DNA from: Betaproteobacteria bacterium
GTDB taxonomy: Bacteria > Pseudomonadota > Gammaproteobacteria > Burkholderiales > Rhodocyclaceae
Assembly: GCA_028065725.1 (NCBI GenBank)
Contig: JAPTVL010000484.1
Span: 1 to 26,544, forward strand
Length of the DNA stretch: 26,544 nt
Direction: 5' to 3'
Below the pieces are notes generated by a model, which saw only the letters and a list, made by a program, of their open reading frames with translations, did no database searches and was not told the DNA's origin. Shown here piece by piece: positions 2,471-22,742 of the stretch (positions within the stretch are counted from its first letter, which is position 1; each line of letters opens with the position of its first letter). A program made the position numbers and the translations under genes.

Positions 2471-2511
2471 CTTGGTTGACAGTTCAGTTGTCAGTTTACA
2501 CCTTGGTTGAC
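2471..2511. promoter_or_regulatory. Direct repeat and palindrome upstream of the TIGR04255 operon
   Basis: The 10-mer CTTGGTTGAC occurs at 2471-2480 and again at 2502-2511, 31 bp (about three helical turns) apart. Between them TGACA (2477-2481) and TGTCA (2489-2493) form an inverted repeat with a 7-bp spacer. The block lies 20-60 bp upstream of the GTG start of the minus-strand operon, where a promoter and operator are expected. The HTH protein of that operon is the obvious candidate ligand, by inference. No convincing -35/-10 pair for the minus strand could be picked. Confidence 0.5.
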
Positions 2512-2563
2512 GCGGGCGCCAGAAGATTCGCACGCAGTACTCTCCGCACTCAAGCTGCTCCAA

Positions 2564-2647
2564 CGTTGTTCATTCGTTGTTCCAATTTCGCTTGACCGCG
2601 CATATCGGCATACCTATGATCCACGACGGAACAACAAACGAACAACG
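2564..2647. repeat. 20-bp inverted repeat with four GTTGTTC boxes around a promoter
   Basis: The left arm (2564-2583) and right arm (2628-2647) are inverted copies matching at 18 of 20 positions. Each arm holds two GTTGTTC boxes spaced exactly 11 bp, one helical turn: 2565-2571 and 2576-2582 on the plus strand, 2629-2635 and 2640-2646 on the minus strand. The arms flank the predicted promoter at 2592-2620, and the right arm covers the likely transcription start and 5' leader. The geometry is that of a cooperative operator or looping repressor site. The binding protein is unknown. Confidence 0.75.
2592..2620 (+). promoter_or_regulatory. Predicted sigma70 promoter of the GTPase/AAA/nuclease operon
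   Basis: A -35 box TTGACC (2592-2597) is followed after exactly 17 bp by a -10 box TATGAT (2615-2620). Both are close to consensus. The start site would fall near 2627, about 30 bases before the ATG at 2657. Its position also argues that the GTPase does not begin at the upstream ATG-like codon at 2507, which would lie before the promoter. Confidence 0.7.
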
Positions 2648-2656
2648 AGGTGCGGC

Positions 2657-4924: not shown

Positions 4925-5169
4925 TGGACGGTCACAGACATTCGAGGAGGGGCCCGCCCCAGAGCGAGGCTAGGCTTGCGCTTGCCAGCGGTCTCGCCCG
5001 CTTGGCAGCCACCGGAGCCATCAGCGCGCGGAGCTTGGTGACCGCATCCGATGCGACATGCGGCAGGGAGATGAATACGACCTTCCTGCCGCCATCTAGA
5101 CTCCAGGGGCTGATTGACCAGGCCATCTTCTACCTGGAGAATGGGAGTTTTGTCAAGAACAAGAACTAA
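4924..5169 (+). CDS. Small unknown 81-residue protein coupled to the GTPase
   Basis: The GTG start at 4924 overlaps the last base of the GTPase stop (TAGTG), and the stop lies 5 bp before the AAA+ gene, so the frame exactly fills the gap between two real genes. The N-terminal third is Arg/Ala/Ser-rich. The C-terminal part (LQGLIDQAIFYLENG) would make an amphipathic helix. There is no recognisable domain and no good Shine-Dalgarno, so translation would rely on coupling. It could be a small linker subunit of the complex, or merely an open stretch. Confidence is limited. Confidence 0.5.
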   Translation: MDGHRHSRRGPPQSEARLALASGLARLAATGAISARSLVTASDATCGREMNTTFLPPSRLQGLIDQAIFYLENGSFVKNKN

Positions 5170-5174
5170 ACCCT

Positions 5175-6866
5175 ATGGCCACTCCACTGCCGACAAAGGA
5201 CATCCTCGGGGTCTTCAAGGCCCTCAAGGACGACATCCAATCGACGCTGCTCACTCCGAGAGGGCTCTCGATCAAGAGCTGCGGAACGAAGGCGCTCGCT
5301 CTTGCAGAGCCAACCAGCCCGGCGACGGGTTATTGGGCCAACCCTCAGTCTGTCTCAAGCAAGCCGCCACGTTGGATCATTCAGGTGGAGGGACAGGCGA
5401 CTGGCGGGGTTGCAGCAAGGTTTGCCCTTGATGCCACCGGATCTCCGATTCCGATGGGCCGCACGGTCGGTTATGTGAACAACCGTGATGGCTCATGCGC
5501 GGTTTGCGCGTTTCGCGTGTTGCCAGCAGTCAAGCCGACGGGGCCCGGTAGCCCGTGGGAGTATCCCCAAGGCTGGGAGTACCTCCTGGTCGTCGCCTTC
5601 GCACAGCCGCTCCCAGCCGGCACCTCTGGCGATCCGCTTAGCGACTTCAACCCAGCAGCAGGCACCATTGACTTTGGCGGTGGCACGGCGAAACGAAGCT
5701 ACAACGTAGCGTTCCGCGCGGTGGTGAAGGTTCCAGGAGCGATACCAGGTGCGGCTGGAACGACCTATGACAACACTGCTCAGGCAATCGCCACGCTCGC
5801 GGGCGCCACCCTGTATGACGGAACGCAGGATGCTGAGCGGGACCGACTTGTCGCCGACCTTTCTGCCGTGTTTGCGGCTGCGCCTGCCGCAGGACCTTTC
5901 ACACTCGCCGAGGACACGTCGCTGGTCGGTATCGACCCTTTGGTCTATCGGCAAATCGAAGCGGCGGTCAGCTCTGGCAAGCGGCACATCATTCTCTATG
6001 GCCCCCCGGGAACTGGCAAAACCACCCTAGCCGAGTACTTGGCCCGCGAGATCTCAGAACGAGATGACGGCGATGGCTCGTACCTAATGCTCACAGCCTC
6101 TTCCGCGTGGAGCGTGCAAGATCTTGTTGGCGGGTACCAGCCGCTTGGTGGAGGCGCGATCGGCTTCATCCCGGGTGCGATGCTCCGGAATTTCGATAAG
6201 CCAACCATCATTGACGAACTCAACCGTTGCCCGATCGATAAGGTACTGGGACCGCTCTTCTCGATCCTGTCAGGGCAAGCTTCTGTCTTGCCATGTCGGG
6301 CAAATGCGACCGATCCATCGAGCCCATTTCACGTCGTCTTGCCGGAGCCCCGCGCCGGTATGGCTGTACACGAGCATGCCCCTGAAGCAGCATGGCGACT
6401 TATCTGCACACTCAATACTTACGACAAGACCCAGCTTGGACAGATCTCCTACGCCCTTAGTCGTCGCTTCGCATGGATCAAGGTTGGCGCTCCGTCCGAT
6501 CCTGACCAATTTACAGAGGAGATGGCTGGCCGACTCGGGATCACCGTTCCGAATCCTGTTCCTGCCAATCCGGTCGGTGCAATGTGGCGTGCGGTGAACG
6601 CCGCGCGAGAAATTGGCGGTGCGCCGATCGTCGATTTTCTCAAGACGCTTCGTGCCCTTAATCACGGCGTCGACCCGTTCGCTCAGCCGGTTGGCGTTGC
6701 TGCGGACGCCTTCCTGTCGGCGTTCAGTATGTGCGTCCTGCCCCTAATGGATGGATTGAGTCCAAGAGAAGCGACTGATCTCGCGACCAACGTGGCCGCG
6801 GCTTGGGCACTGGACGCCAACAGGGCGGCTCGGCTCACCTTGGACTGCAGGGAGTTCTCCGCTTGA
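5175..6866 (+). CDS. McrB/MoxR-like AAA+ ATPase
   Basis: The protein has 563 residues. The AAA+ module is complete: Walker A GPPGTGKTT at 276-284, Walker B TIIDELNR with D347 and E348, sensor-1 Asn at 414 (CTLNTYDK) and an arginine-finger pair at 430-431 (SRRFAW). The DELNR and TLNT...SRRF arrangement is typical of the McrB/MoxR/dynein-like clade. The first 250 residues are a separate domain I cannot assign; in McrB-type proteins this part recognises modified DNA or another trigger. The gene is followed with a 4-base overlap by a PD-(D/E)XK nuclease, the order expected of an McrBC-type pair where the ATPase translocates and activates the nuclease. The Shine-Dalgarno before 5175 is poor; the ATG is retained because the previous stop is only 5 bp away. 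Confidence 0.88.
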   Translation: MATPLPTKDILGVFKALKDDIQSTLLTPRGLSIKSCGTKALALAEPTSPATGYWANPQSVSSKPPRWIIQVEGQATGGVAARFALDATGSPIPMGRTVGYVNNRDGSCAVCAFRVLPAVKPTGPGSPWEYPQGWEYLLVVAFAQPLPAGTSGDPLSDFNPAAGTIDFGGGTAKRSYNVAFRAVVKVPGAIPGAAGTTYDNTAQAIATLAGATLYDGTQDAERDRLVADLSAVFAAAPAAGPFTLAEDTSLVGIDPLVYRQIEAAVSSGKRHIILYGPPGTGKTTLAEYLAREISERDDGDGSYLMLTASSAWSVQDLVGGYQPLGGGAIGFIPGAMLRNFDKPTIIDELNRCPIDKVLGPLFSILSGQASVLPCRANATDPSSPFHVVLPEPRAGMAVHEHAPEAAWRLICTLNTYDKTQLGQISYALSRRFAWIKVGAPSDPDQFTEEMAGRLGITVPNPVPANPVGAMWRAVNAAREIGGAPIVDFLKTLRALNHGVDPFAQPVGVAADAFLSAFSMCVLPLMDGLSPREATDLATNVAAAWALDANRAARLTLDCREFSA

Positions 6867-8092
6867 CACATGCGGAGACAGTGCTCGAGGCGATGTGCCT
6901 CCGAGGCTTCCTCCGATATTTGGGGGCAGGTCCACGGTCGCCGTATGGCGGCCCAGCGACTTCGCTGACTCCGGCTGATGTCGACGCCCTCCGGATGTGG
7001 TGGGCACTCTCGGGACCTGTCGGCGTCCTTGCCGCACGATGTGTCAGTCGACCCCGAGAAATTGCGCCGGCCTTCGATGACTTCAGACGAGAAACGTCAG
7101 GGGAGATTCCAGGGCCACCCGATGCTGCCGCCTCGGCGCTGCTCCAGGCGGTAACCTGTGATCCCGGCGCATTTGTCGTCACCGAGTCGATGGGAACCTG
7201 GGTTTCTGGACCGAATCGGGTTCTGGTCAAGACGCTCGACGCCGCAAGAAGCGCACTTCGGGCGGCGTCCCTCCATGCCAGGGGCGGCCTGTTCGACGGA
7301 CCCGCAAGCGAGCGTCTTGCCATCATTGACGACGCGCTACGAACGGCGCCGCTTAGGGAGATCCTCGCCTCACCTGCAGGCCGAGCGAGAGTCACAGCGC
7401 ACGAGCGAAGACAAGCTGCCAAGGCACGTGCGCCCCTATATCGCCTTGCCTGGGATTGCGCCTCTGCCGCGTCCGCCATCGAGGACCTGGAGCCGGAGGC
7501 TATCACCGCCCTGCTGAGGTCCGAAGTCTTACCTAGACTGGAGGCATGGCGTCAGTTCGAGTTGGCTTGCCTACTCGAGGTCACCGCTGTGCTTGCCTCT
7601 GCTACCGGGGCAAGCTGCGCTTTAGATGCATCGTTCACACCGAGCAGGCCAGCTGCCCGAATCGGTGACCTAGAAGTCTGGTGGCAGCGCGCGATACGGT
7701 CGAGACCAGACGTGAATCTCGACGAAGGTGAACGTAAGGCGGCTAGTCTGGCAGCATCACTGGGAGTTACGGCCGGGACCGCCCGAGCCGATCTGACTAT
7801 CGAGCGGGCAGGGCGTGTACTCGGGATTGTCGAATGCAAGTGGTTCGGTGATGAGTCCTCTGTTCCGGGAGCCATCCTTGACGCCTGTGCGCAGATCGTG
7901 GGCTACACCCGTGACGCCGCTTGGAGACAAGAGGAGGATGCGGACGCCATCCTTTCGAGAAGCTTCATCGCTCTCGCCCGGCGAGGAGCAGTCCCATTCC
8001 GAGCAGCGCACGGACCGATTGGCTGCGTCGGCCTTGATGACCTTGGTGTAGCAGCGCTGCAACCATGGGCTAACTCGATCTTGGGGGCCTAA
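6863..8092 (+). CDS. PD-(D/E)XK nuclease with QxxxY motif, McrC-like partner
   Basis: The protein has 409 residues from a TTG start at 6863 that overlaps the ATPase stop (TTGA), with GGGAG eight bases upstream; an ATG-less longer frame starting at 6803 is unlikely. The C-terminal domain shows D310 in an ADLTIE strand, then E324-C-K326 in IVECKWF, and a QIVGY motif at 344-348. This D...ExK plus QxxxY pattern is that of RecB/AddB-like PD-(D/E)XK nucleases. The N-terminal 300 residues are helical and Ala-rich with no assignable domain. Partnership with the McrB-like ATPase directly upstream is inferred from coupling and from the McrBC paradigm. The stop overlaps the stop of the convergent methyltransferase gene, so no terminator fits between them. 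Confidence 0.82.
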   Translation: MTHAETVLEAMCLRGFLRYLGAGPRSPYGGPATSLTPADVDALRMWWALSGPVGVLAARCVSRPREIAPAFDDFRRETSGEIPGPPDAAASALLQAVTCDPGAFVVTESMGTWVSGPNRVLVKTLDAARSALRAASLHARGGLFDGPASERLAIIDDALRTAPLREILASPAGRARVTAHERRQAAKARAPLYRLAWDCASAASAIEDLEPEAITALLRSEVLPRLEAWRQFELACLLEVTAVLASATGASCALDASFTPSRPAARIGDLEVWWQRAIRSRPDVNLDEGERKAASLAASLGVTAGTARADLTIERAGRVLGIVECKWFGDESSVPGAILDACAQIVGYTRDAAWRQEEDADAILSRSFIALARRGAVPFRAAHGPIGCVGLDDLGVAALQPWANSILGA

Positions 8093-9270
8093 GCCGCTCG
8101 TGCTGCTCCGCCGTCGGCCACAAGCGGTACGACTCGCTCGTCGACAGGAGCAGCGCAGGGTGTGTGGATCATGTACGAGGACGGCTTGCCAGCGGATAGT
8201 GGATCCGCTGCGCCGACGAACCGTGCCATAGCCCCTTCAAGGTATGACGCGTTCATCTCAACGCAGGCCCAACTCCGGCTGAGCGATTCGGCAACCGCCC
8301 CAGTTACACAGGAGCCACCAAATGGATCGAAAACAAAGTCGCCGGGGTCGGTGGTCATGCGGATGAAGTACTCCGGCAAAGCCGCAGGAAAACGCGCCGG
8401 GTGGATGTCCAAACCCCGCTCTCTGCAGTAGTCCTGATACGTACCGTTTGATTCAGTGTTGGCAATTGCCAGCAAATTAGGGGGGACAGAGCCCCCGTTG
8501 TCCTTACCGAACTTCTCTGAGATTACATGGCCAGAGGGTCGTGTCTTTGCCTGATAACCGTTCTTGAGCAAAGATTTCATTGAATCGCTGTATGGGGCAA
8601 GAACGCGACGATTACTCGCTTTGGGAAAGGGCTTCTTGGAAAGCCACCACACGCAATTGACTGCGTCCTTGGGTCTAACACGCCGAACATTCACCCACTC
8701 TGCGGGTGTTGGAAGCTTCGCCGGATTCCACCAGTAGTGTTCGAGTGCGAGGTGAAAGCCATACTCCTCGCAGAGCATGATCAGCAGTTCGAAGTGATAA
8801 AGAGAACGCGTTGGCGACCCAGGCTTCCACGCACCCCCAATGTCAATAACTAGGCTGCCATCATCTTTCAGGATCTTCCGGAAACCCTCCGCAAATGGGC
8901 GAAACCAGTCGCAGTAGGCGTGCGCATCCTCGTTGCCATAGGACTTCTTGCGGACCAGCCCGAACGGTGGTGACGTCATGATGAGATTGACGCTGCCGGC
9001 TTCCCGGGCATCCATCCAGTCGAGAGAGTCCCCGTTCCACATGGCCCCGTGCTCGGTGCGGTGGTACTCCGTCAGCGGCCTGGTAACGCGTGGAGTGCGA
9101 ATCTTGGGAGTGGCAGACTCAATATCGGCACGTGCGAGTGCTCGCAGATAGTCGCTAAGAGATCTGTGCCCGAGGGCCTTCACCCGGTGTTCGAGTGCGG
9201 CCTTCTCGGCGGCGCTCATGCGAATCGAAGTCGTGGTCTCTCGCGGCTCCGATACAGTGGGTCGAGCCAT
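8089..9270 (-). CDS. Beta-class DNA methyltransferase with RHH-like N-terminus
   Basis: The protein has 393 residues. Motif IV TSPPF is at 99-103 and motif I FDPFGGS lies around 314-320, so the catalytic motif precedes the SAM-binding motif, which defines the beta class (N4-cytosine or N6-adenine). The TSPP form is common in N4-cytosine enzymes. Residues about 12-50 (TTTSIRMSAAEK then SLSDYLRALAR) look like a ribbon-helix-helix domain, which could let the enzyme repress its own promoter. The ATG at 9270 is preferred over an open extension to 9444 because AAGAGGA lies seven bases upstream and the extension is Arg-rich and unnatural. It faces the nuclease gene convergently, with overlapping stops, and is divergent from a possible endonuclease gene. 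Confidence 0.9.
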   Translation of the reverse strand: MARPTVSEPRETTTSIRMSAAEKAALEHRVKALGHRSLSDYLRALARADIESATPKIRTPRVTRPLTEYHRTEHGAMWNGDSLDWMDAREAGSVNLIMTSPPFGLVRKKSYGNEDAHAYCDWFRPFAEGFRKILKDDGSLVIDIGGAWKPGSPTRSLYHFELLIMLCEEYGFHLALEHYWWNPAKLPTPAEWVNVRRVRPKDAVNCVWWLSKKPFPKASNRRVLAPYSDSMKSLLKNGYQAKTRPSGHVISEKFGKDNGGSVPPNLLAIANTESNGTYQDYCRERGLDIHPARFPAALPEYFIRMTTDPGDFVFDPFGGSCVTGAVAESLSRSWACVEMNASYLEGAMARFVGAADPLSAGKPSSYMIHTPCAAPVDERVVPLVADGGAARAA

Positions 9271-9294
9271 GTCTGTTCCTCTTGATCGTGATCG

Positions 9295-9329
9295 GTTTTC
9301 GTAACGCAAAAACCAGCGCTGTTTTCGTA
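9295..9329. promoter_or_regulatory. Repeated GTTTTCGTA boxes between methyltransferase and endonuclease genes
   Basis: GTTTTCGTA occurs at 9295-9303 and 9321-9329, 26 bp apart, within the divergent intergenic region (9271-9501). Between them CAGCGCTG (9314-9321) is a perfect 8-bp palindrome inside a longer imperfect one. The boxes are 25-60 bp upstream of the methyltransferase start. A controller site bound by the methyltransferase N-terminal domain is a reasonable inference. No clear promoter hexamers were identified on either strand. Confidence 0.4.
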
Positions 9330-9501
9330 TTACATGCCGCCATTGTGACTCTGGACTCGGCCTTCGCGCAAGCCCTGAGCGACGGCGGGCCACGGAAAGT
9401 CCGCTGACCTCTGGGCATCGCTCTCGCGCAGCCATCACTCTCAATGTGCGACGATTGGCTCTTCCACAAAAAGCCGACCACTACAGGTCTTGAAGGGAAG
9501 C

Positions 9502-12532: not shown

Positions 12533-12975
12533 ACCGTCCTCCCTTCGAACTCCATCTGCTCGGCCAGACGGCGATGTAAAAGCCCGGCCAATACGCGCCC
12601 AGCGTCGTGATCCCACAGCGGGAACTGCGCTGCCGCCGCCGCCAGATTCCCCGCATTGAGATCGCGCAACAGCGTCGAGCGCGCGAAGGCGCCAACTCCG
12701 AGGTTGAACACGAAGTCCGCCAGGGCATCGAACTCGGCCTGTTTGAGCGGCACGTTGACCAGCCGGTTGACCGCGGCGGCAGCTTCCCGGGTGTCCTGCT
12801 CCAGCCAGGCGAGCGCCTGCTCGCGCGTGCAAGTCATGCCCTCCAGCACACCGTGGGTGTGGCCGTAGCCGATCGTCCAGACACCTCCGGTATCCGCATA
12901 GGCTTGCAGCCGGCAGCCTTCGAAGCGTTCGGTCAGCTGCTCACCCGCCTTGCTGTAGGTCATCGGCGGATTCAT
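12529..12975 (-). CDS. Phage endolysin, GH24 lysozyme
   Basis: The 148-residue muramidase cuts the beta-1,4 bond of peptidoglycan. The catalytic pattern E19 (RFEG), D28 (ADTGG) and T34 (WTIGYGHT) matches the Glu-8-Asp-5-Thr spacing of T4 lysozyme. The ALADFVFNLG and GLLHRRLAE regions are typical of the family's C-terminal lobe. No hydrophobic N-terminal anchor is present, so export would depend on the holin. The start at 12975 has GGGAG eight bases upstream and overlaps the preceding stop by 4 bases. Confidence 0.93.
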   Translation of the reverse strand: MNPPMTYSKAGEQLTERFEGCRLQAYADTGGVWTIGYGHTHGVLEGMTCTREQALAWLEQDTREAAAAVNRLVNVPLKQAEFDALADFVFNLGVGAFARSTLLRDLNAGNLAAAAAQFPLWDHDAGRVLAGLLHRRLAEQMEFEGRTV

Positions 12976-13526
12976 CGCGCGTCTCCCTGGTACTGCGGTT
13001 CATGGGCCAGCACCCAGGCCCAGAGCCGATCGAACGCCTGCTTGTAGTAGTCCGCCAGGCCTGGCGAAGCCGTAAAGCACAGATCGTTCATCTGCTGGCT
13101 GGCGCTGGTGGAGTAGTTCCACGATCCATCCTCCACGCCGACCTTGCCGTCAGGCGTCCAGATCACGGTGGCCTTCAGATGCACGATCTGGTGGTGCACG
13201 GGACTCGTGCCGATGAGGAAGTGCTCGCCATCGACGAGCCCTGCCGCGCGAAGACGCTCGATCTGCGGTGCCTCGGCACGTCCCGCCGCCTGGGTGTGAT
13301 CGAAAATCACCTTCACGTCCGCGCTGCACCGATGCGCCTCGATCAGCGCGTCGAAAAACGGTTGCAGGGTGCAGCCGTAGATCATGGTGCGCAGCTTGGC
13401 TCCGGGAGCGGCAGCCCCGGCCAGGAACGCTTCGAAGGCTTTGAGGCCGTCAGCGTAGGGGGTGATGATGCGGGTCTGCTCGGCGGTCTCATGCAGGATG
13501 CCGAGTGCGGCGAGGACTTGGCTCAT
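12972..13526 (-). CDS. Phospholipase D-like domain protein in the lysis operon
   Basis: The 184-residue protein has a single PLD-type signature: H116-x-K118 in VHLKATVIW, then GSWN at 134-137. The canonical HxKx4D motif would have Asp at 123; here it is Trp, so the catalytic site is atypical. PLD-family proteins act as phosphodiesterases, nucleases or phospholipases and often work as dimers when they have one motif. It lies between a small membrane protein and the endolysin with ATGA overlaps on both sides, so it is expressed with lysis genes. Possible roles are membrane attack, exclusion or DNA degradation; none can be picked. Confidence 0.75.
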   Translation of the reverse strand: MSQVLAALGILHETAEQTRIITPYADGLKAFEAFLAGAAAPGAKLRTMIYGCTLQPFFDALIEAHRCSADVKVIFDHTQAAGRAEAPQIERLRAAGLVDGEHFLIGTSPVHHQIVHLKATVIWTPDGKVGVEDGSWNYSTSASQQMNDLCFTASPGLADYYKQAFDRLWAWVLAHEPQYQGDAR

Positions 13527-13777
13527 GGCTTGATCACTCCATGCAGCACACCCCAAATGACCGCCAGGCCGCTGCCGACGACGGACAGCCACATGACGGC
13601 GCGCGCCCCACCCTTGGCGGTAAGAAAGGTCTGCTTCATCTCAGCGAACTCCTCCGACTGCTTCTGGTGGAAGGCTTCGATGTAGCGGGCCAGCAGCCGG
13701 AACTCGGGCGATGGAATCTGATCGATCTCGGCGCGAAGCGCGTCGATCGTGGATTGAGGGGGTTGGGGTTCGGTCAT
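13523..13777 (-). CDS. Small membrane protein with C-terminal transmembrane helix
   Basis: The 84-residue protein has a charged helical N-terminal half (about residues 10-55) and one C-terminal transmembrane segment (WLSVVGSGLAVIWGVLHGV). The ATG at 13777 has AAAGGAG eight bases upstream. Its stop overlaps the next gene's start. The topology is that of some antiholins and class III holins, and it is the first gene of the lysis run, so a second holin or antiholin is possible. Function is inferred from topology and position only. Confidence 0.75.
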   Translation of the reverse strand: MTEPQPPQSTIDALRAEIDQIPSPEFRLLARYIEAFHQKQSEEFAEMKQTFLTAKGGARAVMWLSVVGSGLAVIWGVLHGVIKP

Positions 13778-13860: not shown

Positions 13861-14154
13861 TCAGAGGTTCTGCTCGCGCGCCGTCATGGCCCGGTCGCAG
13901 TGCCCCGGATCCAGGCGATCGAGCAACGCGCACAGCAGGCAGCCCCAGCGCGCGGGCCGGGCGTGGGCGGCGCGGCTGCTGATGGTTTGGCCCAGCTTGC
14001 CATTGGCCGCGACGTTGCCCAGGTCGTCGAAACCGATGGCGATCAGCCAGGCGCGCTTGGGGGCGCGGACGATCGCCCAGGCCATGCGCACCAGTGCCAC
14101 GGGGGCGACCAGCCACAGCCCCAGCCAAATCAAGATCAACGGCCAACGCTTCAT
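13861..14154 (-). CDS. Small phage membrane protein with ISSRA motif
   Basis: The 97-residue protein has an N-terminal transmembrane helix (LILIWLGLWLVAPVALV), a FDDLGN segment, the motif TISSRAAHA and a Cys-containing C-terminal part (WGCLLCALLDRLDPGHC). Similar small proteins with an ISSRA motif occur in other tailed phages near lysis genes, as I recall, without established function. AAGGAG lies six bases before the ATG at 14154, which overlaps the radical SAM stop (ATGA). The Cys residues and coupling to the maturase make it one possible partner, weakly. Confidence 0.8.
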   Translation of the reverse strand: MKRWPLILIWLGLWLVAPVALVRMAWAIVRAPKRAWLIAIGFDDLGNVAANGKLGQTISSRAAHARPARWGCLLCALLDRLDPGHCDRAMTAREQNL

Positions 14155-15548
14155 GCAGAACTCCTTACGGGTGACATGGAATGAATCGGAATGACGCGGC
14201 GCACCACGGCGCCAGCGCCTACCCGTGCATCGCTGCCGAAAAGATCCCGGCGCGCATCGGGCAAGGGATCGCCCTCCAGCGCGTCGATGCGTAGCGGCAC
14301 GGTTCCAGTGAGCAGTTCGAACGCCAGGGCGAACACCACCACCGCGTCCGAATACGCCGCGTCGCAACTGGTCTGCCACAGTGGCCCTTCGAGGAACATG
14401 CAAGATCCCCGGCAGATGTGCAGCACCGGGCAGCGCGGGCACTCGGGGCGCCGACTCCAGTGCGTCCCAGAGGCCAGCGCCACGCGCTCGAGCGCGGCCG
14501 CTGTGCCCAGGCGATGGGGCTGCCCATTGGGTGCTACCGTGCCTGCTGCGACGTTCTGGCAGGTCAGGACATTGCCGTGCAGATCGACGGCCAGGTGGTC
14601 GGCGCGGTCCATGCCGCACTTCTGGCCGAGGGATGAGGCCGGGCGGCGATGTGCGATGCTGGCCATGAACGCTTCGACCTTGCCGCGCAGCGCCCCGAAG
14701 TTGCTGGCGCATCCTGCGCGCGCCTCGGCGAAGGCCTGCCGGCGAAACATCGCGTGCTCCGCAGGGCTGCGCAGGCACGCGTGCACACCGGCGTCGTCGT
14801 AGGCGTCGATCCAATGCCCTTCGCCGATCGGCACGTCCGCGTCGCCCGTGAGTGCGACAAAGAACGCTTGGACCTGCGCCCGGCTGGCATTGCCCCGGTG
14901 CAGCATCGCGTTGAAGGAGACGCGCCCCTGCGGCTTGAACCTGCGGTACAAGTCCAGGATGGCCGCGCGGGTGCTCGGCACCTCCAGCGGATCGGGTCCA
15001 CGCGCCGCCTGCCCGGGGCCGTCGTGCGAAATGCCCACCGCAAAGCCCATGCGGTCGAGCCAATCCACCTTGGCCGCATCGAGCAGCGCACCGTTGGTGA
15101 TCACGAGGAAACCGGCGTCCGGATGGCGCTCGCGCAGCGCCTCGGCCAGTGGCTGCAGCAGCTTCCAGTACACCAGCGGCTCACCGCCCCAGAACTCGAA
15201 GGTGGGCGCGCGGTGGATCTCGACGCTCAGCCAAGTCGCAAGCGTCGCCAGGAAGGCGTCGATACGCCCGGCGCCTTCCTGCGCGGGCCGCTGGCTGGCC
15301 TGGTTGCAGTAGCTGCAGGCGTAGTTGCACTGCAGCCCGAGTTGGATCTTGATACGCCGAAATGGCCCGCCTTTGTGCCCGGGCGTATCACGCGAGATGG
15401 CCGACACCGACTGCCATGGCGCGGGTGCCGGAATCTCGAATGGCATCGCCACTGGGCGGCCATCTCCCTGCGTGAGGCTCGATGTGGCGTTGTCGTAGAC
15501 GAAGCGCTGCCGGCCCTGGGGGCCCAGGGCATCGATGACAAAGCGCAT
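14151..15548 (-). CDS. Radical SAM/SPASM peptide maturase
   Basis: The 465-residue enzyme has the radical SAM motif C74-x3-C78-x2-C81 for the SAM-binding iron-sulfur cluster, a GGEP motif in the following strand region (WGGEPLVYW), and a C-terminal SPASM domain. The SPASM cysteines fit the consensus: C311, G-x4-C330, C370-x2-C373-x5-C379-x3-C383 and C395, binding two auxiliary clusters. SPASM enzymes modify peptides or proteins, making thioether or carbon-carbon links, formylglycine or epimers. The first 65 residues could be a small recognition domain; I cannot confirm an RRE fold. It belongs to a run with the Hint-bearing fibre, the SerC-like enzyme and the 266-residue unknown. A candidate target is the Cys/Asn cluster of the fibre, which is inference. 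Confidence 0.93.
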   Translation of the reverse strand: MRFVIDALGPQGRQRFVYDNATSSLTQGDGRPVAMPFEIPAPAPWQSVSAISRDTPGHKGGPFRRIKIQLGLQCNYACSYCNQASQRPAQEGAGRIDAFLATLATWLSVEIHRAPTFEFWGGEPLVYWKLLQPLAEALRERHPDAGFLVITNGALLDAAKVDWLDRMGFAVGISHDGPGQAARGPDPLEVPSTRAAILDLYRRFKPQGRVSFNAMLHRGNASRAQVQAFFVALTGDADVPIGEGHWIDAYDDAGVHACLRSPAEHAMFRRQAFAEARAGCASNFGALRGKVEAFMASIAHRRPASSLGQKCGMDRADHLAVDLHGNVLTCQNVAAGTVAPNGQPHRLGTAAALERVALASGTHWSRRPECPRCPVLHICRGSCMFLEGPLWQTSCDAAYSDAVVVFALAFELLTGTVPLRIDALEGDPLPDARRDLFGSDARVGAGAVVRRVIPIHSMSPVRSSA

Positions 15549-15552
15549 GGGG

Positions 15553-16353
15553 TCAGGAGGCGGTGGGCGCGGCGACCGTGCCGCTGGTGGTCGCCGTCGC
15601 CGAACTCGGCGGTGCTGTCACGGCCGCTGCGGCGGTCATGGCCGATTGGGATGCCGCGAGGTAGGCCTTTTGCACCGCGCGGACCTGAGTCTTGACCGCG
15701 ACGATATTGGCCAACATCGCGTCTTGGGGAATGATCGTCTGCACCCCGGCTTGGGAGAGATCGCTACTCACGGCGGCGAACCACGCCGGCTGTTGCGCTG
15801 TGGGCATTGCTGCAAAGAGTTCCAGCACCGCAGAGGTCAGCAGGTCGACCTGCTGCTCCAGGGCCATGACCGCATCCGGGATGCAGATTTGCGACATCGC
15901 ATCGATTTTGGCCTTGTAGGCCGCCTGCAAGTGGGCCAGTTCCGGGTAGAGGTCGGCCGCGATCGTCATCGCAAAGCGCTTGGGGTTGGCGGCCACCGTG
16001 TAGGGCAGCGTGCAACTCGTCGGCACGGTTGCCACCAACGCGACCCGGTCGATGCTGTTGCCGCAGCACAGCACGAACAGCGGTGCCTGGGCGTTGACGC
16101 CGTGAGCGCCTTGCATCCAAGCGACGAAGTCCTTGGAGTCGACCTGCTCGGAACCGGGCACGGTGATCCAGCGGCCCAGGAAGTCCTGGTAGATCAGCAG
16201 GGACGACAGCGGCGCAAACACCGAGGCGAGATCCAGTGTGAGCGTCTGCGATCCGGCGCCGGATAACACAGGCTGGGACGACGTGCCAGCAACTGCGCAT
16301 TGCGCGGCGAAGCCAGCGGCCTTGGGGTCGCTGGTGAGGAGAATGGTGGTCAT
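15553..16353 (-). CDS. Unknown 266-residue protein between aminotransferase and maturase
   Basis: I do not recognise this protein. It starts with a strand-rich region (TTILLTSDP, then LTLDLASV), has a Cys-Cys pair (FVLCCGNS), a helical middle (YPELAHLQAAYKAKIDAM) and a low-complexity Ala/Thr/Ser/Pro tail from about residue 240. No signal peptide is seen. The stop lies 4 bp before the radical SAM start, and the gene follows the SerC-like stop by 60 bp. It could be a structural accessory of the fibre, a chaperone, or the substrate or scaffold of the maturase. A weak GAGA is the only ribosome site. Confidence 0.8.
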   Translation of the reverse strand: MTTILLTSDPKAAGFAAQCAVAGTSSQPVLSGAGSQTLTLDLASVFAPLSSLLIYQDFLGRWITVPGSEQVDSKDFVAWMQGAHGVNAQAPLFVLCCGNSIDRVALVATVPTSCTLPYTVAANPKRFAMTIAADLYPELAHLQAAYKAKIDAMSQICIPDAVMALEQQVDLLTSAVLELFAAMPTAQQPAWFAAVSSDLSQAGVQTIIPQDAMLANIVAVKTQVRAVQKAYLAASQSAMTAAAAVTAPPSSATATTSGTVAAPTAS

Positions 16354-16413
16354 GATTCAAGGTCTCGCTTGTGGAATGTCAGACACATGAGCAATGCCGC
16401 GCCAGATTGCGTC

Positions 16414-17505
16414 CTATTGCGCCCAATCGCGCAGCACGGCCGCCAGGTTTTGTGCAGCCTCGAGCGCCACCGCGTCGTACAGCGACGCCCGAAATCCCCC
16501 CAAGCTGCTGTGTCCGTCCAGTCCCGAGAAGCCGGCGTCGGTCAGTGCCCGGCGCAGTGATGCATCGCGCGCTGGGTTGGCCAGGCGGAACGCGACGTTC
16601 ATCTGCGAGCGCCAAGCCGGTTGGGCGTGCGGGATGTAGACGTCGGGGTTTGCGTCCAACGCCGCGTAGACCGCTGCCGCCTTGGCGGCGTTGATGTGCG
16701 CCATGCGCTTCAGATCTCCGATCTCGTCGCGCAGCCAGCGCAGCACGAGCAGCACCGTGTAGATCGCGGCGACTGGCGGGGTGTTGTAAATCGAGCCGGC
16801 TCGCGCGTGCGTGCGGTAGTCGAGCATGGGCGGCAGGCCGCTGGGCGCCTGCTCCAACAAGCTCTTTCGCACCAGCACGACCGTGACCCCGGCCGGCCCC
16901 AGGTTCTTCTGGGCGTGGGCGTAGATCAGGTCGTAGGCATCGAGGTCGATCGGCCGCGACAGCAGGTCTGAGCTCATGTCGCAGACCACGAGCCGCTCCC
17001 GCAGTCGCGGTGGCGCATCTCGGAACTGCAACCCCTCGACCGTCTCGTTGCTCACAACGTGCAAGATGCCGGGCCGCTGGGTGGTCTGGTCCCACCGCGG
17101 CAGCGCGCGGTAGCCCTGCGCGAGCCCATCCCAGGCCAAGTGCGGCGCGCACACCGCGGTCGCCTCGGCCATTGCCCGCGCGCTCCAGTACCCCGCGCGC
17201 ACCCAATCGACCGGTGTTGCCGGGGTGCAGCCCAAATTGACGAGTGCCATCGAGAACTGCAGCGAGGCGCCGCCCTGCAGGAAAAGCACCTCCCAATCAT
17301 CGCTCGCGCGCAGCAGCACGCGCAGGATGGCCTGGGCTTCGTCCACCACCGCGCGGAACCAGTCGCTGCGATGGCTGATGCCGTAGAGTGACAGACCGAC
17401 CTCGGGAACCTCCAGCGCGGCCTGCGCCAGTTGCTCCAGCACCGCCGGCGGCATAGCCCCGGGGCCGCCCGAGAAGTTGTGCGCGTTGCGCCAGGCGGCG
17501 TTCAT
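16414..17505 (-). CDS. SerC-like PLP aminotransferase (class V) in a tail module
   Basis: The 363-residue protein matches phosphoserine aminotransferase along its length: NFSGGPGAMP at 10-19, GISHRS at 42-47, a VLFLQGGAS core, AHAQKNLGPAG with PLP lysine K200, SIYNTPP and a GGFRASLYDA end with R339. SerC makes phosphoserine from 3-phosphohydroxypyruvate and glutamate. From memory of E. coli SerC, phosphate is held by H41, R42, H328 and R329. Here H45, R46 and H332 are kept but the last Arg is S333, so the natural substrate may differ. The ATG at 17505 overlaps the Hint-fibre stop (ATGA), so it is coupled to a structural gene, an odd place for serine synthesis. An open extension to 17829 is a shadow of the fibre gene. 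Confidence 0.9.
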   Translation of the reverse strand: MNAAWRNAHNFSGGPGAMPPAVLEQLAQAALEVPEVGLSLYGISHRSDWFRAVVDEAQAILRVLLRASDDWEVLFLQGGASLQFSMALVNLGCTPATPVDWVRAGYWSARAMAEATAVCAPHLAWDGLAQGYRALPRWDQTTQRPGILHVVSNETVEGLQFRDAPPRLRERLVVCDMSSDLLSRPIDLDAYDLIYAHAQKNLGPAGVTVVLVRKSLLEQAPSGLPPMLDYRTHARAGSIYNTPPVAAIYTVLLVLRWLRDEIGDLKRMAHINAAKAAAVYAALDANPDVYIPHAQPAWRSQMNVAFRLANPARDASLRRALTDAGFSGLDGHSSLGGFRASLYDAVALEAAQNLAAVLRDWAQ

Positions 17506-19016
17506 CGACGCAGCGCCCGTGGATCCCACCGGAATGCGGCGTAGTCGAATCCCCATTCGTCCACCCCCGCGCCCGCCACATAGCCGCCCACCACGATCGG
17601 TACCCCGCCCGTGAGCGGCAGGTACAGCGGCGTGGCCGGCCCGAAGCCTGAGGCCTCGACGACGCGGCGCTCGCGCCAGCCCTCGAGGTGGGCAAAGGCA
17701 TGGCCCTGTCCCGTCCACAGACTGCCGTTGTCCTTCAGGCCCCGGATCGCGCCCACGGCCGCCTCCAGGCGCCAGCGATCCGGGTTGGCCGACCACCACC
17801 ATTGCTCGCCGGCCGCATCGCGCGTCCACAGCGCGTGCTCCTCCGACCAGAGCAGCGAGGCGTCGTTGAAGGTCAGCATGCGCCGATCACCGAGGAGGGG
17901 GCGATCGATGGCCAGCACTGCGACCGGCTTGCCGTCGGCCCCCATCACGCGCTCGCCTGGGCGAAGGGTCTCGATGGAGCGTTGCGTTCCATCGGCCATC
18001 AGCACGCGCGTGCCCGCCGGAAAGCAGGTGCAATTGCAGTTGCAGTTGGCCAGGCTCGCAGCGACGGTAGCCGATCCGGCAGTCCGAGCATAGTTGGCAG
18101 TACTCGCGTAATTGACGCTGAAGTTCGAGGGGTTCCAGACATAAAAATTGGCCCCGTCGTTGCTGCCCACCAGCCACGTGGGCTGCCCGCCCTGGCCGCT
18201 CCAGTTCAGGTCCCACGCAGCACCGTCGGCGCGCAGCGGGTGGGCGCGGCTCGCGGTCGCCGCGTTGCCCGAGATGTTGATGCCGTAGGTGCCGCCGTTG
18301 TTTTGCACGATGGCGGTGGTGTCGACCCCGCCCACGGCGACGTGGTTGTTGGATCGGTTGAAATTGACGATCGAGCCGCCGCTTGCCGAGTACAGGCCCC
18401 AGGCGCTGGCGTTGTTGTAGAGGTAAGCGGGGTTTTGGCCCGCACCTACAGCGCCCACCTGGGCTTCGCCGCCGGGGTTGCTCGCGAACAGGTTGCCGTT
18501 GACCGTGCCGCCGCTGGCGCCACCCACGGTGGATACCGTGCCGGCGTTGCCGGCGATGCTGCTCGGAAACGCGATCGCCGCGGTGGCCATCGCCGTGACC
18601 TGGCCCTTGGCGTTGGTGGTCAGCACCGGCACGGTCGTGGCATCGCCCGCGGTGCCGGGGTTGGGGTTGACGCTGGATAAGGTGGCCGCGATGCTCACGT
18701 TGCCGCTGCCGTCGAAGCTGGCCGATCCGGTGATGTCGCCGGTGAGAGCCAGGGTCACCGCCTGCTGCAGTTTCTTGGACTGTGCAGCCACGACGTTGTA
18801 GACAGCGGCCAGCGCGCTCCAGGCCGTGCCGTTGAACTTCTCCCAGAAGGCGTTGGCGCTGTTGAAGCGGACGGCACCCGCCGGCAGGTTGGCCGGGTTG
18901 GTGGTGGCCGGGTCGAGTCCCTGCGCCAGATCGGAGGCCAGCGCGTTGATCTCCGCGGTGACGTCCACATAGGGGTCCGTCACCTGCGGTTTGGAGAAAT
19001 CCGAGGTGTTACTCAT
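17502..19016 (-). CDS. Tail-fibre protein with Cys/Asn cluster and C-terminal Hint domain
   Basis: The protein has 504 residues. The N-terminal two thirds are fibre-like, with a LTGDITGSASFDG phage-tail repeat, a VPVLTTNAKGQVTA collar-type repeat and Gly/Asn/Ala-rich beta repeats up to about residue 320. Residues 324-331 alternate Asn and Cys (NCNCNCTC), and C331 opens a Hint domain: CFPAGTRVLMADG as block A, then SEEH with H394 as the block B His. The 174-residue domain ends without the His-Asn pair of splicing inteins, so Hedgehog-like cleavage at C331 through a thioester on T330 is expected, leaving the Cys cluster at the new C-terminus. AAAGGA lies before the ATG at 19016. It follows gpJ by 21 bp and is coupled to the SerC-like gene. 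Confidence 0.88.
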   Translation of the reverse strand: MSNTSDFSKPQVTDPYVDVTAEINALASDLAQGLDPATTNPANLPAGAVRFNSANAFWEKFNGTAWSALAAVYNVVAAQSKKLQQAVTLALTGDITGSASFDGSGNVSIAATLSSVNPNPGTAGDATTVPVLTTNAKGQVTAMATAAIAFPSSIAGNAGTVSTVGGASGGTVNGNLFASNPGGEAQVGAVGAGQNPAYLYNNASAWGLYSASGGSIVNFNRSNNHVAVGGVDTTAIVQNNGGTYGINISGNAATASRAHPLRADGAAWDLNWSGQGGQPTWLVGSNDGANFYVWNPSNFSVNYASTANYARTAGSATVAASLANCNCNCTCFPAGTRVLMADGTQRSIETLRPGERVMGADGKPVAVLAIDRPLLGDRRMLTFNDASLLWSEEHALWTRDAAGEQWWWSANPDRWRLEAAVGAIRGLKDNGSLWTGQGHAFAHLEGWRERRVVEASGFGPATPLYLPLTGGVPIVVGGYVAGAGVDEWGFDYAAFRWDPRALRR

Positions 19017-19037: not shown

Positions 19038-22000
19038 TCAATACCCTTTGGCGGCCCAGGACACCGCGCCCGAGGAGCGCTGCCCGGCGGGGGTGAACAG
19101 ATAGACGCTGAAGCCGCTCGGGTTCGCCTGCCCCGAGAAGTCGTAAAGCGCCACGAGTGGCGAGGTGCCCGCGGGGGTGACGGTGATGCTGGTGACGTCT
19201 ACGAAGGGCACGTTGAAGGCGACTGCCGTGCCGTTCGCGTCCGCCGCGTTGGCCAGCACGGTGCCGGCATCGTTCTTGAGCTTGACGGACAGTTTGATCT
19301 CCAGGCGCGAGATCTCCAGCAGGGACGTTGCATCGGGCGCGGTGACGGTGAGAAGCACCTTCACCCAGCGAAAGTCGGTCAGGTAGACGTTGGCGCCCGC
19401 ATAGTCGGTCCAGGGACCGGTTGGCCCCACGTTGCTGCTGCTGACCGTGATCGAAAGCGCAGGCGTGCCCGCCACGACCGTGGTGGTGGGAGTGACTTGC
19501 ACATTCGTGGCGCTCAGCACCGCGCCGTAGTCGATGACTTCCTCGTAGGAGCCTGCGGCCAGCGCGGGCTGCGCGTAGATCGGCAGCCCTGCAGCGATTT
19601 GGTCCTGCGGAGCGTTCCAGGATCTCGCGCTAAAGTGCTGCGCCCAGGTCGAGGCAGTGTCCACTGGCAAGGTGATCGCCCCCTCGTCGAGCACGGCGTT
19701 TGTGAGCGTGCCGGCGAACGTGGAGAAGATGTCGGCGTGCAGCACGTAGTCGGGTGGAGCGTTGACGGCTGCAGCCACCGCCCCAGGCGTGCCCACGTTG
19801 CCGGCCGAATCCACCGCAGCGACCCAGTAGCGGTAAGTGCCGGCGCTGGTCTCGAACACCGTGGTGAACAGCCCCGCTTGGGTGCCGATGATCTGCGCCG
19901 CATCGAAGGTGCCTGCCGCGGGCCCCCGGCGTACCTGGTAGGTGGCGACCGGCAGCGTCGCGGTGGCGTCGGTCCAGGACAGCAGCACGTTGTTGTCGAT
20001 GACCTGCGCGCTCAACGTGGGCGCTGCGGGCGGGGTGACCACCAATTGAGCCATCGCCCAGGCGCCTTGGTTGCCGGCGGCATCGACCGCGGCGATCCAG
20101 AAGGTCTGGGTGCCCGCCCAATCGACCTTGCTCTGGTACTGCGTGGTCTTGTTGTTGGCGATGACCCGCGCCGAGGCCGCCTGCGCGCCGGTTGCGATCA
20201 CGTAATGGTCCACCGGGAACATACTGGCGGGAAGCGTCCAGCCCAGCACGTAGTGGTCGCCCGAGAGGCTGGCCGTGACGCCGGGCGCTTGCGGGGCGGT
20301 GACCGAGAGGCTCGCGGGCGTGGCGTTGACGGATTCGACCAGAAGCAGGTTGCGCGCCTTGATCCACCAGTCGTATTGCGTTTGCGGCAGCGGCGGCACG
20401 TGGGCCGAGGTGCCGGCGTAAAAACCCACCAACGTGCCCGAAACCCAGTCGACACCCTCGCGGATCTCATAGTCGTAGCGCATGGGGTCGGCCACGTCGG
20501 TCCAACTCAGCAACACGCCATTGCTTTGCACCGCCGCCTGAAGCCCCGCCACATCGGCGATGGTTGGAGGTGGCGCAGGGGCCGGCGTCACGCTCAGTGT
20601 GGCCGCGGGCGAGACCTGACCGACCGCAGAGAATGCCGTGACGGTGAAGGTGTAGGGCACGCCGATCTCGAGGCTTTCGATGTCCACGCTGTGCTGATCG
20701 GTCATGATCGTGGTGGACGGCGCGTTCGCTTTGTTCCAGACCACCCGGTAGCGGCAAGCGCCGCTTGCGCTCCAGGACACGGTACCCCGCAGGCCCGCCA
20801 CACCGATGTCGATCACGTACCGCGACACCAGGAGACGAAGGTTGGACGGCGCGGCTGGAACAGCGGCAATCAGGCTCGTAGCGGGGGTGGTGAGCGCCAG
20901 ACCGTCTTCGATGAAGGCGTACTTGCTGGCGTTGTAGGCCACGGCGGCCACGTCGATCTGCGTCGCGTTCGCCTCGGTGAGGGTGACCACCTGCCAAAGT
21001 TCGGGTTGAACCTGGGCGTCGCTGAGCAGGACCAGAGCGCCGGGTACGGGCGTTTGCGGCAGGGCCGCTGCCAGCACGATCTGGTTGCCGGTGACGCCGG
21101 CCACCGCCTGCGTCGCCAGGCTCCCGTCGGGCAGGAGAACTTGCGCCGAGAGGCCGCTGGCTGCCGGCGGCGCTGCGTCGAGTGTGAGGGTGAGCAAGTC
21201 TGCGGATACGTCCAGCATCCGTCCTCCCATGCGCACGCCTGCGCGCGTCGGGTCGCTGGTCTGGATGATGTCGCCCGGCGCCAGATACATCCCGTCCATC
21301 GCGCAGCGAAACGTCACCGTCTCGGTTTGCAGACTCTCCGAGTACAGCAGCCACTTGCCCAGGCGATGCGCCTGGCCGCGACGGGTGCAGCCCAGGGCGC
21401 GCACCTGCGCGGTGATGACGCCGTACTTGGCCACCAGCGCGTCGTCCTGCACGTACTCGACGACGGTGGCGTAGCCGTTATCCGGGTCGTTCCACGTCAC
21501 CTGCGCCACGGTGTGGCGCGCGCGCAGGCTGGTGCCCTGGTAGGAGAACGCGCCGCCTGCGACATTGGCCGGCGCGAACATCATCACCGGATCGGCAGGC
21601 GCATCCTGGCTGACGTGAAGCGTACCTGCGCCCCAATAGACGATGGCCCGGAAGATGGAGGCCATGTGCTGCACGGCGGCGTAGGCGTCCTGCTGCGAGG
21701 CCAACAGAAGATTGCAGGTAAAGCGCGGCTCGAGCCCACCGAAGCCATCGGGCACCATCTGGTCGCAGTATTGGCCGATGGTGTAGAGCGACCATTTGTC
21801 GATGCTGCTCGCATCGATCAGTCCGCCCAGGCCGTAGCGTTCGTTGGTGAGCAGGTCGTAGAAGCACCAAGCCGGGTTGTCGGTCCAGGCCAACTGGAAC
21901 GTGCCGTCCCAGGTTCCGGTGTAGCTGCGCGTGGCCGGGTCATAGTTGTTCGGGACCTGCACGATCAGGCCCCTCACGTCGTAGGCCCGCGCCGGGATGT

Positions 22001-22742
22001 GATCGAATTGCATGGCGTCGATGGCGATGGCCGCCATCGCGGTGTGCGGGTAGGCCAGGCTCGCGTTGGACACCAGCGTGAGCGCGTCAAAGTACAAATC
22101 GTTGGCCAGGAGCGAACTGCCCGAATCTGGCGTCAGGCGCGTGACCTGGACCTCCCACGGCCCCGTTCCCGTCAGGGGGATCAGGTAGTCGCGGGTGTAC
22201 TGGCTCGTGGTCTTGCCGTTGAAGCTGTCACCAACGACGGTGACGAAGCCGCCACCGTTGGTGTTGAGCGCGATCTGAAAGGCCACCGACGTGCCGCCGA
22301 TATTGCCGCTTTGAGCGTCTGTGTCGGTCAGCGCCGGTGTCATGATTGACGCGCGCAGGGCGTTGACGTTGGCTGCCGTGACGGCCTGCACGACGGGTGT
22401 GGCCTGGTAGACCTTCGCGTGGACCGAGATCGTGTTTTGCGCGTCGGAGCCAGCGTAGCCTGCCGCGTTGGTCACACCCACGGCGCCTGGCGTGCCGGTG
22501 GCGTACTCGAACACGAAGCCATTGAAGTTCCACGAGCCGTCGGCGTTTTGTAGCGGGGTCTTGTCCAGAAAGACGGACTGCGCGCCGTTGGCAAGGCCCA
22601 CGATCGGCCCTTCGCACCAGGCGTCGAGCACCAGCGCCTTCTGCGAGGAACGCAGGGTGTTGGGGGACTCGGATACGCCGCCACTGCCACCGCCGCCCTT
22701 GCCACCGCCTCCCGCGCCGCGAATGAGGAGATCCGCGCGCAT
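19038..22742 (-). CDS. J: Tail tip/host-specificity protein, lambda gpJ equivalent
   Basis: The 1,234-residue protein matches lambda J over its N-terminal half: a Gly-rich start, ALVLDAWCEGPIVGL, VQVPNNYDPATR, GTWDGTF, YTIGQYCDQMVPDGFGG, and CTRRGQAHRLGKWLL. It forms the tip of the tail and contacts the receptor. The C-terminal half differs from lambda, with at least four fibronectin type III-like modules (about residues 630-1000, repeated LSWTD and YRYWVAAVD patterns) and a beta-rich end. The ATG at 22742 shares one base with the gpI stop (TGATG). A long plus-strand open frame across it is a GC-driven shadow. Confidence 0.96.
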   Translation of the reverse strand: MRADLLIRGAGGGGKGGGGSGGVSESPNTLRSSQKALVLDAWCEGPIVGLANGAQSVFLDKTPLQNADGSWNFNGFVFEYATGTPGAVGVTNAAGYAGSDAQNTISVHAKVYQATPVVQAVTAANVNALRASIMTPALTDTDAQSGNIGGTSVAFQIALNTNGGGFVTVVGDSFNGKTTSQYTRDYLIPLTGTGPWEVQVTRLTPDSGSSLLANDLYFDALTLVSNASLAYPHTAMAAIAIDAMQFDHIPARAYDVRGLIVQVPNNYDPATRSYTGTWDGTFQLAWTDNPAWCFYDLLTNERYGLGGLIDASSIDKWSLYTIGQYCDQMVPDGFGGLEPRFTCNLLLASQQDAYAAVQHMASIFRAIVYWGAGTLHVSQDAPADPVMMFAPANVAGGAFSYQGTSLRARHTVAQVTWNDPDNGYATVVEYVQDDALVAKYGVITAQVRALGCTRRGQAHRLGKWLLYSESLQTETVTFRCAMDGMYLAPGDIIQTSDPTRAGVRMGGRMLDVSADLLTLTLDAAPPAASGLSAQVLLPDGSLATQAVAGVTGNQIVLAAALPQTPVPGALVLLSDAQVQPELWQVVTLTEANATQIDVAAVAYNASKYAFIEDGLALTTPATSLIAAVPAAPSNLRLLVSRYVIDIGVAGLRGTVSWSASGACRYRVVWNKANAPSTTIMTDQHSVDIESLEIGVPYTFTVTAFSAVGQVSPAATLSVTPAPAPPPTIADVAGLQAAVQSNGVLLSWTDVADPMRYDYEIREGVDWVSGTLVGFYAGTSAHVPPLPQTQYDWWIKARNLLLVESVNATPASLSVTAPQAPGVTASLSGDHYVLGWTLPASMFPVDHYVIATGAQAASARVIANNKTTQYQSKVDWAGTQTFWIAAVDAAGNQGAWAMAQLVVTPPAAPTLSAQVIDNNVLLSWTDATATLPVATYQVRRGPAAGTFDAAQIIGTQAGLFTTVFETSAGTYRYWVAAVDSAGNVGTPGAVAAAVNAPPDYVLHADIFSTFAGTLTNAVLDEGAITLPVDTASTWAQHFSARSWNAPQDQIAAGLPIYAQPALAAGSYEEVIDYGAVLSATNVQVTPTTTVVAGTPALSITVSSSNVGPTGPWTDYAGANVYLTDFRWVKVLLTVTAPDATSLLEISRLEIKLSVKLKNDAGTVLANAADANGTAVAFNVPFVDVTSITVTPAGTSPLVALYDFSGQANPSGFSVYLFTPAGQRSSGAVSWAAKGY

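Follow-up and report, generated by a model that had tools for sequence, protein, structure and literature searches.

The window, i.e., the whole 26,544-nucleotide stretch of contig JAPTVL010000484.1 (assembly GCA_028065725.1, Betaproteobacteria bacterium) analyzed here, carries in the tail module of a lambda-like prophage a tail fiber with an alternating-cysteine repeat, (XC)n, and a radical S-adenosylmethionine (SAM)/SPASM enzyme. The (XC)n-tailed fiber and the radical SAM enzyme are a widespread core unit, and the cassette in the window is one form of it. The pairing of the enzyme with the repeat as its putative substrate is strongly supported by an association that runs both ways, from enzyme to repeat and from repeat to enzyme. 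Gene order, motifs and this two-way association were observed directly. From these, we infer that the radical SAM enzyme acts on the repeat at the fiber end, and the locus is quite probably a tail-tip maturation cassette.

Association of the cysteine repeat with the radical SAM enzyme

In the forward direction, the enzyme alone was used to select 99 loci (phages L001-L002, viral loci L003-L019 and genome loci L249-L328, the last being the best 80 of 100 matches). A tail was scored when (XC)n lay within 10 residues of the stop codon, or was followed by a Hint domain, on the same strand and within 5.5 kb, in loci with at least 4 kb upstream. An (XC)n tail was found upstream on the same strand in 71 of 80 enzyme loci, as compared to 2 of 80 on the opposite strand (Fisher test, 3e-32, relatedness ignored). 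The difference was also apparent from enzyme clusters, both at 80% identity (42/46 versus 1/46 on the opposite strand) and at 60% identity (22/25 versus 1/25).

In the reverse direction, IMG/VR was scanned with the DNA patterns NCNCNCNC and NCNCNC-stop, i.e., without use of the enzyme, giving at least 120 matches per pattern and at least 220 distinct frames. Among the matches listed, to which all reverse counts refer, 134 frames were at least 85 aa long and had a C-terminal repeat. Of these, 72 had 4 kb or more of downstream sequence; the enzyme was encoded downstream of 69 of them, on the same strand, and within 4 kb of 66. Control frames too short for fibers had the enzyme in 3 of 36 cases, all three looking by eye like true small substrates, and internal repeats had it in 1 of 8, that one (L147) being a Hint-capped tail. 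Counted by tail family, the enzyme was present for 33/36 families at 70% identity and 11/14 at 40%.

The opposite-strand and short-frame controls rule out a chance origin of the repeat. The first-pass annotation had suggested scoring co-occurrence; for the fiber tail and the radical SAM enzyme the outcome is strongly positive. It had also named the fiber as substrate and the Cys cluster before C331 as target, and the association in both directions makes both assignments likely. A substrate gene beside a maturase gene, linked across genomes, is also the arrangement by which systems for ribosomally synthesized and post-translationally modified peptides (RiPPs) are recognized, and it was found here for the candidate pair.

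The fiber and its repeat

The fiber gene of the window (17502..19016, minus strand, 504 aa) directly follows the J gene. PHROG head-decoration and tail-fiber matches fall on the first 325 residues, with the best at 45-181. The repeat NCNCNCTC, the proposed radical SAM substrate, occupies residues 324-331 (18024..18047, minus strand), directly before a C-terminal Hint domain that starts with C331, the last Cys of the repeat. Fibers of relatives end C-terminally in (XC)n, with X mostly Asn, and have a phrog_1802-family radical SAM/SPASM gene downstream. Since C331 is both the last repeat Cys and the first Hint residue, the Cys cluster of the first-pass annotation is the element common to the relatives, and the Hint domain sits on it as a cap.

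Fiber ends in other viral loci include NCACNCDCNCSC (L007), NCNCNCACDCAC (L009) and NCNCNCNCNCNC (L017), and L010 encodes three consecutive small proteins with ends NCNCNCNC or alike. Tail-fiber PHROG matches were obtained for 8 of 10 repeat-tailed proteins tested. Over 76 tail clusters, a few of which are probably spurious (e.g., the L299 and L275 frames), the number of Cys per repeat ranges from 3 to 10, and X is Asn at 279 of 385 positions, Ala at 38 and Asp at 31. In some tails the repeat is preceded by His runs (HFDPHHHHNNCTNCNCNC). Close prophages can be one NC unit apart, as with NCNCTC in L006 and NCNCNCTC in the window. The Cys codons are mixed, neighboring ones being unlike in 95/312 cases, and because adjacent codons so often differ the repeat appears to be kept as protein and not as a DNA repeat. 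A DNA microsatellite was ruled out as its origin on the same ground.

Tandem small proteins (~90-170 aa), each with its own (NC)n-type tail, precede a single enzyme gene in L010/L016 (7635-8547) and L011 (5430-6342). Further loci with tandem small repeat-tailed proteins are L100, L132, L149 and L240.

The radical SAM/SPASM enzyme

The enzyme (P0004; 14151..15548, minus strand, 465 aa) was identified by Pfam, NCBIfam and PHROG matches and by its linkage to (XC)n tails. It matches Pfam Radical_SAM, the NCBIfam SPASM model TIGR04085 (29.0 bits, cut-off 27) and phrog_1802 (E 3.9e-50), a family that was also matched by all three main enzymes tested from other loci (L007, L053 and L313) and that PHROGs places in the category "other", with no role stated. 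Besides C74/C78/C81, the SPASM Cys set is complete (C311, G325-x4-C330, C370-x2-C373-x5-C379-x3-C383 and C395). The CxxxCxxC motif and the seven-Cys SPASM residues are invariant in 41 aligned sequences, that of the window included, and the N-terminal part carries YDNxTS in alignment A2. Among the best 25 of 40 NCBIfam matches, no named maturase subfamily reached its cut-off and only the SPASM domain model passed. The enzyme is too unlike named maturases for its reaction to be deduced from the sequence.

The nearest genome, G001, contains a near copy of the cassette, with an enzyme 97% identical to that of the window and SerC beside it. The enzyme occurs in 6 of 399 genomes of the family of G001 and, at E 1e-40, in 1 of 398 genomes of its phylum, as expected of phage cargo. 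Partial or broken enzyme copies were seen in Polynucleobacter and Limnohabitans genomes (L315 and L312/L035), and in L315 the tail is degenerate too. Limnohabitans also contributes prophage-like loci with the enzyme (L262, L263 and L268).

The Hint domain as a probable cap

The Hint domain spans fiber residues 331-504 (17505..18026, minus strand), as judged from PF05203 and alignment, with C331 as the predicted nucleophile and H394 in WSEEH. The match to Hom_end_hint (PF05203) starts exactly at C331 and scores 41.1 bits (cut-off 32.1) over residues 331-372, i.e., over profile positions 1-42 of 228 only. The Hint Cys is the last repeat Cys in the window, L003-L006, the Achromobacter phages JWF and 2-1, L147, L279, L304 and L310; it comes directly after the repeat in L309 and L314 and a few residues further on in L328. 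L325 was dropped from the Hint-capped set as a false match of the motif filter. The Cys and the block-B His (C331 and H394 in the window) are conserved across the aligned Hint-capped fibers, and with the domain starting at C331, this residue is the likely cut site, as had been suggested before.

Inspection by eye found no His-Asn at the block G place in the aligned Hint-capped fibers; an HN occurs earlier in the Hint domain of L304, L309, L310 and L314. Since the block G place lacks His-Asn, cleavage before the Hint Cys is predicted, with no splicing, and the mature C-terminus would then be like that of the bare fibers. The combination of a block G His-Asn and a C-extein that marks splicing inteins was not found by this inspection.

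On the enzyme tree, a quick tree with support from the Shimodaira-Hasegawa-like approximate likelihood-ratio test (SH-aLRT) only, Hint-capped tails are present in 9 of 87 rows and account for 5 changes, at least 3 of them forced by starred branches. The Providencia phage PSTNGR1 (L332, 4563-5516) encodes a hypothetical protein with a related Hint domain at its C-terminus that is not preceded by (XC)n, and no Providencia record was found among the enzyme matches in the phage collection, which indicates that the Hint domain is a separate module. The best reading of these data is that it forms a removable cap, apparently gained or lost several times.

Exchangeable genes of the cassette

Cassette composition was determined by profile searches between tail and enzyme in 181 fetched loci that contain both, representing 158 distinct enzyme frames. 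The fiber without Hint is the common form (145/158), and Hint-capped tails account for 13/158. A partner family with an immunoglobulin-like C-terminal domain (cluster 0) is present in 111 of the 158 loci and the P0003 partner family in 19; the two never occur together (0/158), neither is found in 28, and homology between them was not detectable (hhalign probability 0.1%). Genes resembling 2-oxoglutarate (2OG)-Fe(II) oxygenases are present in 85/158, with PF13759 and PF13640 matches below the Pfam cut-offs and one gene matching phrog_81. A second radical SAM gene occurs in up to 11/158, a count that may include cross-matches. Minimal pairs such as L053 and L214, in which the tail and enzyme genes lie no more than 40 nt apart and none of the other cassette genes was detected, make up 9/158. 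As the counts vary for all genes but the tail and the enzyme, these two form the core and the others are exchangeable.

The first-pass annotation had treated four genes of the window as one set: the Hint-containing fiber, a SerC-like enzyme, an unmatched protein that we assign to the P0003 family, and the maturase. As a unit, this set did not survive the comparison. SerC lies between tail and enzyme in only 4 of 158 distinct loci (the window and, closely related to it, L003/L004, L005 and L006), the low counts for Hint and P0003 point the same way, and JWF and 2-1 have the fiber-Hint, a P0003-type partner and the radical SAM enzyme with no SerC.

The P0003-family protein of the window (15553..16353, minus strand, 266 aa) was assigned by alignment and has the C-terminal motif ALExQVDLL; Pfam, NCBIfam and PHROG searches gave no family match for it. 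The cassettes of L122, L136 and L144 contain an extra pair of related membrane-like proteins with His-rich motifs, which look hydroxylase-like by eye; one of these proteins was searched in Pfam and gave no match.

The SerC-like pyridoxal phosphate (PLP) aminotransferase (16414..17505, minus strand, 363 aa) matches Pfam Aminotran_5 and the NCBIfam SerC model PRK05355 (362.8 bits, cut-off 253), TIGR01364 and PRK12462 being below their cut-offs, and phosphoserine aminotransferases in the PDB match it at E 4e-80. The PLP lysine is kept (K200 in QKNLGP). The window protein has GHSS as compared to GHRS in L020-L023 and L330 and GHKS in the own copy of G001 (L331), and this change of GHRS to GHSS speaks for a relaxed or changed function. 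Beyond the four cassette loci, SerC was found only in the near copy in G001 (L029) and in L024, the latter fetched by SerC itself. L024 is a 279-kb viral contig, and its SerC relative is 41% identical to that of the window. Judged from this distribution, SerC was added in this prophage lineage and may be a passenger.

Proposed maturation and alternative explanations

In the maturation that we propose, the fiber would be made with its repeat, to which this lineage adds a Hint domain beginning with the last repeat Cys. A P0003-type partner might perhaps present or chaperone the tail. The radical SAM enzyme would then modify the repeat Cys while still inside the infected cell, either ahead of assembly or in its course, most likely by joining the Cys sulfur to the beta carbon of the Asn three residues away. 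This thioether is favored because (NC)n repeatedly holds the NxxC spacing; we propose it tentatively, by analogy, and at slightly less than even chance. NxxcA has such a beta-thioether, from Cys23 to the Asn20 beta carbon (PMC8326336). As judged from its conserved residues, the Hint domain would likely form a thioester at C331 and cut itself off, so that the mature fiber would end at the same point as the bare relatives. Linked tails in the fiber trimer would make a rigid tip, and such hardened or chemically changed tips could serve stability or receptor binding. The addition in this lineage is SerC; other lineages have a second radical SAM gene or 2OG-Fe(II)-oxygenase-like genes, the products of which could act as Asn or Asp hydroxylases.

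Several observations weigh against this proposal. At 106 of the 385 repeat positions X is a residue other than Asn, which means that some Cys lack an Asn partner at a set distance. The best named NCBIfam subfamily for the enzyme, TIGR04280, scores 53.9 bits against a cut-off of 400, and the structure model of the P0003 protein is poor (predicted local distance difference test score 54). No recognized tail was found in 9 of the 80 enzyme loci (L249, L292, L302, L308, L312, L315, L319, L323 and L328). Among these, L315 is broken and its tail degenerate, the Hint variant L328 is spaced differently, and L308 and L312 match the enzyme in part only; no such cause was seen for L249, L292, L302, L319 and L323. 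Three tail families with NCNCNC ends (L201, L208 and L213) have no radical SAM enzyme nearby. Furthermore, the association counts come from best or listed matches, many of the loci are related, and tail modification, Hint cleavage and any phenotype are predictions.

The fixed Cys and variable X of the repeat would also fit an enzyme like the anaerobic sulfatase-maturating enzymes (anSMEs) that converts the repeat Cys to formylglycine, giving an aldehyde-rich tip that could bond cell-surface amines, although the Cys is fixed by construction of the motif. The solved structures closest to the enzyme profile include that of an anSME (4k37), and the enzyme copy of JWF is annotated as a sulfatase-maturating enzyme. 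The scores rule out this annotation, however, the anSME model giving 38.8 bits against a cut-off of 349. The sulfatase target motif is C-x-P-x-R, whereas C331 is followed by FPAG. Where anSMEs would have their catalytic Asp, probably at the residue following C330, all 17 sequences of alignment A2 have Gln. We consider formylglycine formation unlikely.

An improbable alternative of similar standing is that the (XC)n tails of a fiber trimer bind metal or an Fe-S cluster and that the enzyme acts elsewhere, e.g., on the partner protein. The density of Cys and the His runs before some repeats would suit such a tip, and iron does occur at phage tips. A role on the partner is hard to reconcile with the 28 of 158 loci that have neither partner family and the 9 in which tail and enzyme stand alone and adjacent. 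Moreover, no relationship between the two partner families could be detected, which leaves the tail and the enzyme as the only constant elements.

We regard as very unlikely that SerC is a working part, providing the nucleophile (an amine or a phospho-amino acid) for attack on the Hint thioester, by which the fiber end would be conjugated and not plainly cut. Its start overlaps the fiber stop, the PLP lysine is conserved, and Hedgehog Hint domains pass their target to an outside nucleophile. Yet no SerC match was obtained in the stretches fetched for the Hint-capped loci JWF, 2-1, L147, L279, L304, L309, L310, L314 and L328, and in the window copy a conserved motif is changed. That the genes are morons, i.e., unrelated host-derived genes parked behind the fiber, suits SerC, which is confined to this lineage and has a 41% identical counterpart in the own serC of G001, but it leaves unexplained why tail and enzyme are associated in both directions across dozens of divergent loci; we find it hardly credible.

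Gene layout of the locus

All four genes of the window cassette are on the minus strand at the positions previously claimed. Coordinates from the open reading frames agree with the gene order of the first-pass annotation, with the ATGA at 17502-17505 common to the fiber stop and the SerC-like start, and with the gap of 4 bp from the P0003 gene to the radical SAM/SPASM gene. Its identification of a C-terminal Hint domain, a PLP aminotransferase and a complete radical SAM/SPASM enzyme is borne out by Pfam, NCBIfam and conserved residues. The module is also lambda-like, as had been stated: H, M, L, K, I and J lie upstream of the cassette by Pfam and PHROG matches, with the central tail fiber J (19038..22742, minus strand; phrog_31, E 1e-249) as the immediate neighbor.

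Downstream of the cassette are a small 97-aa frame (13861..14154, minus strand), which shares an ATGA overlap with the maturase stop and has a counterpart after the maturase in L005, then a PLD-like protein and a lysozyme. The PLD-like protein, at 12972-13592, lies between the tail cassette and the lysozyme. Beside the prophage, region 2507-9444 looks like a restriction or defense cluster. It encodes a P-loop protein (weak matches), an AAA_5 protein (5175-6866) that we take to be McrB-like, an adjoining unmatched frame (6803-8092) and an N6/N4 DNA methylase (8089-9444).

Implications and comparison with known systems

We lean, by a modest degree, toward a broader reading in which virus-encoded radical chemistry acts on virion tips: a large and mobile class of phage maturation systems would turn the (Asn-Cys)n fiber end, which can be lengthened genetically, into a cross-linked and non-canonical structure in contact with the host. 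Hydroxylases, an additional radical SAM enzyme, an aminotransferase and a self-removing Hint cap would be optional components of these systems. If the tip chemistry is demonstrated, this would be a new kind of virion maturation. The family phrog_1802, which has no stated role, would gain a concrete substrate, residue by residue. Post-translational tip chemistry is predicted for the tail fibers of many environmental phages, and, if this is true, their receptor-binding parts could not be understood or produced from genes alone. The Hint cap suggests a route by which a phage could protect or release such a tip. With the minimal pairs of tailed gene and enzyme, two genes in E. coli would suffice to address the question.

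No such system was found in the open-licence PubMed Central literature on radical SAM enzymes and tail fibers, on CNCNC, or on RiPP-type or other post-translational changes of tail fibers, and we place the cassette with radical SAM/SPASM maturation, the proposed substrate being of a new class. It resembles RiPP maturation by radical SAM/SPASM enzymes (sactipeptides, ranthipeptides, NxxcA/NxxcB) in the full auxiliary Cys set, the adjoining gene for a Cys-rich candidate substrate and the N-x-x-C spacing. In contrast to those systems, the proposed substrate is the C-terminus of a phage tail fiber and not a small peptide, no leader/core cut was seen, and the enzyme is below the maturase-model cut-offs among the best 25 of 40 NCBIfam matches. 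The likeness to ranthipeptides is limited to the NxxC spacing in NCNC. With anSMEs, the cassette would share a radical SAM/SPASM enzyme that modifies Cys within a full-length protein, but the target motif is absent at C331 and the model score is far below the cut-off.

A close counterpart is phrog_1802 of Achromobacter phage JWF, which belongs to the same family and is encoded in one run with a fiber-Hint and a P0003-type partner; unlike the window, the JWF stretch lacks SerC, and its record notes no link to the fiber. The Hint domain is like Hedgehog and bacterial-intein-like domains in starting at a Cys, in having the block-B His and a PF05203 match above cut-off, and in its expected N-terminal cleavage. 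It differs from them in the absence of a block G His-Asn, in capping the Cys repeat of a fiber, and in that the Hint-less form is the commoner one. Phage fibers can also carry self-cleaving C-terminal chaperone domains, which are removed after fiber folding. The Hint cap is a different domain with different chemistry, and its removal would expose the Cys repeat.

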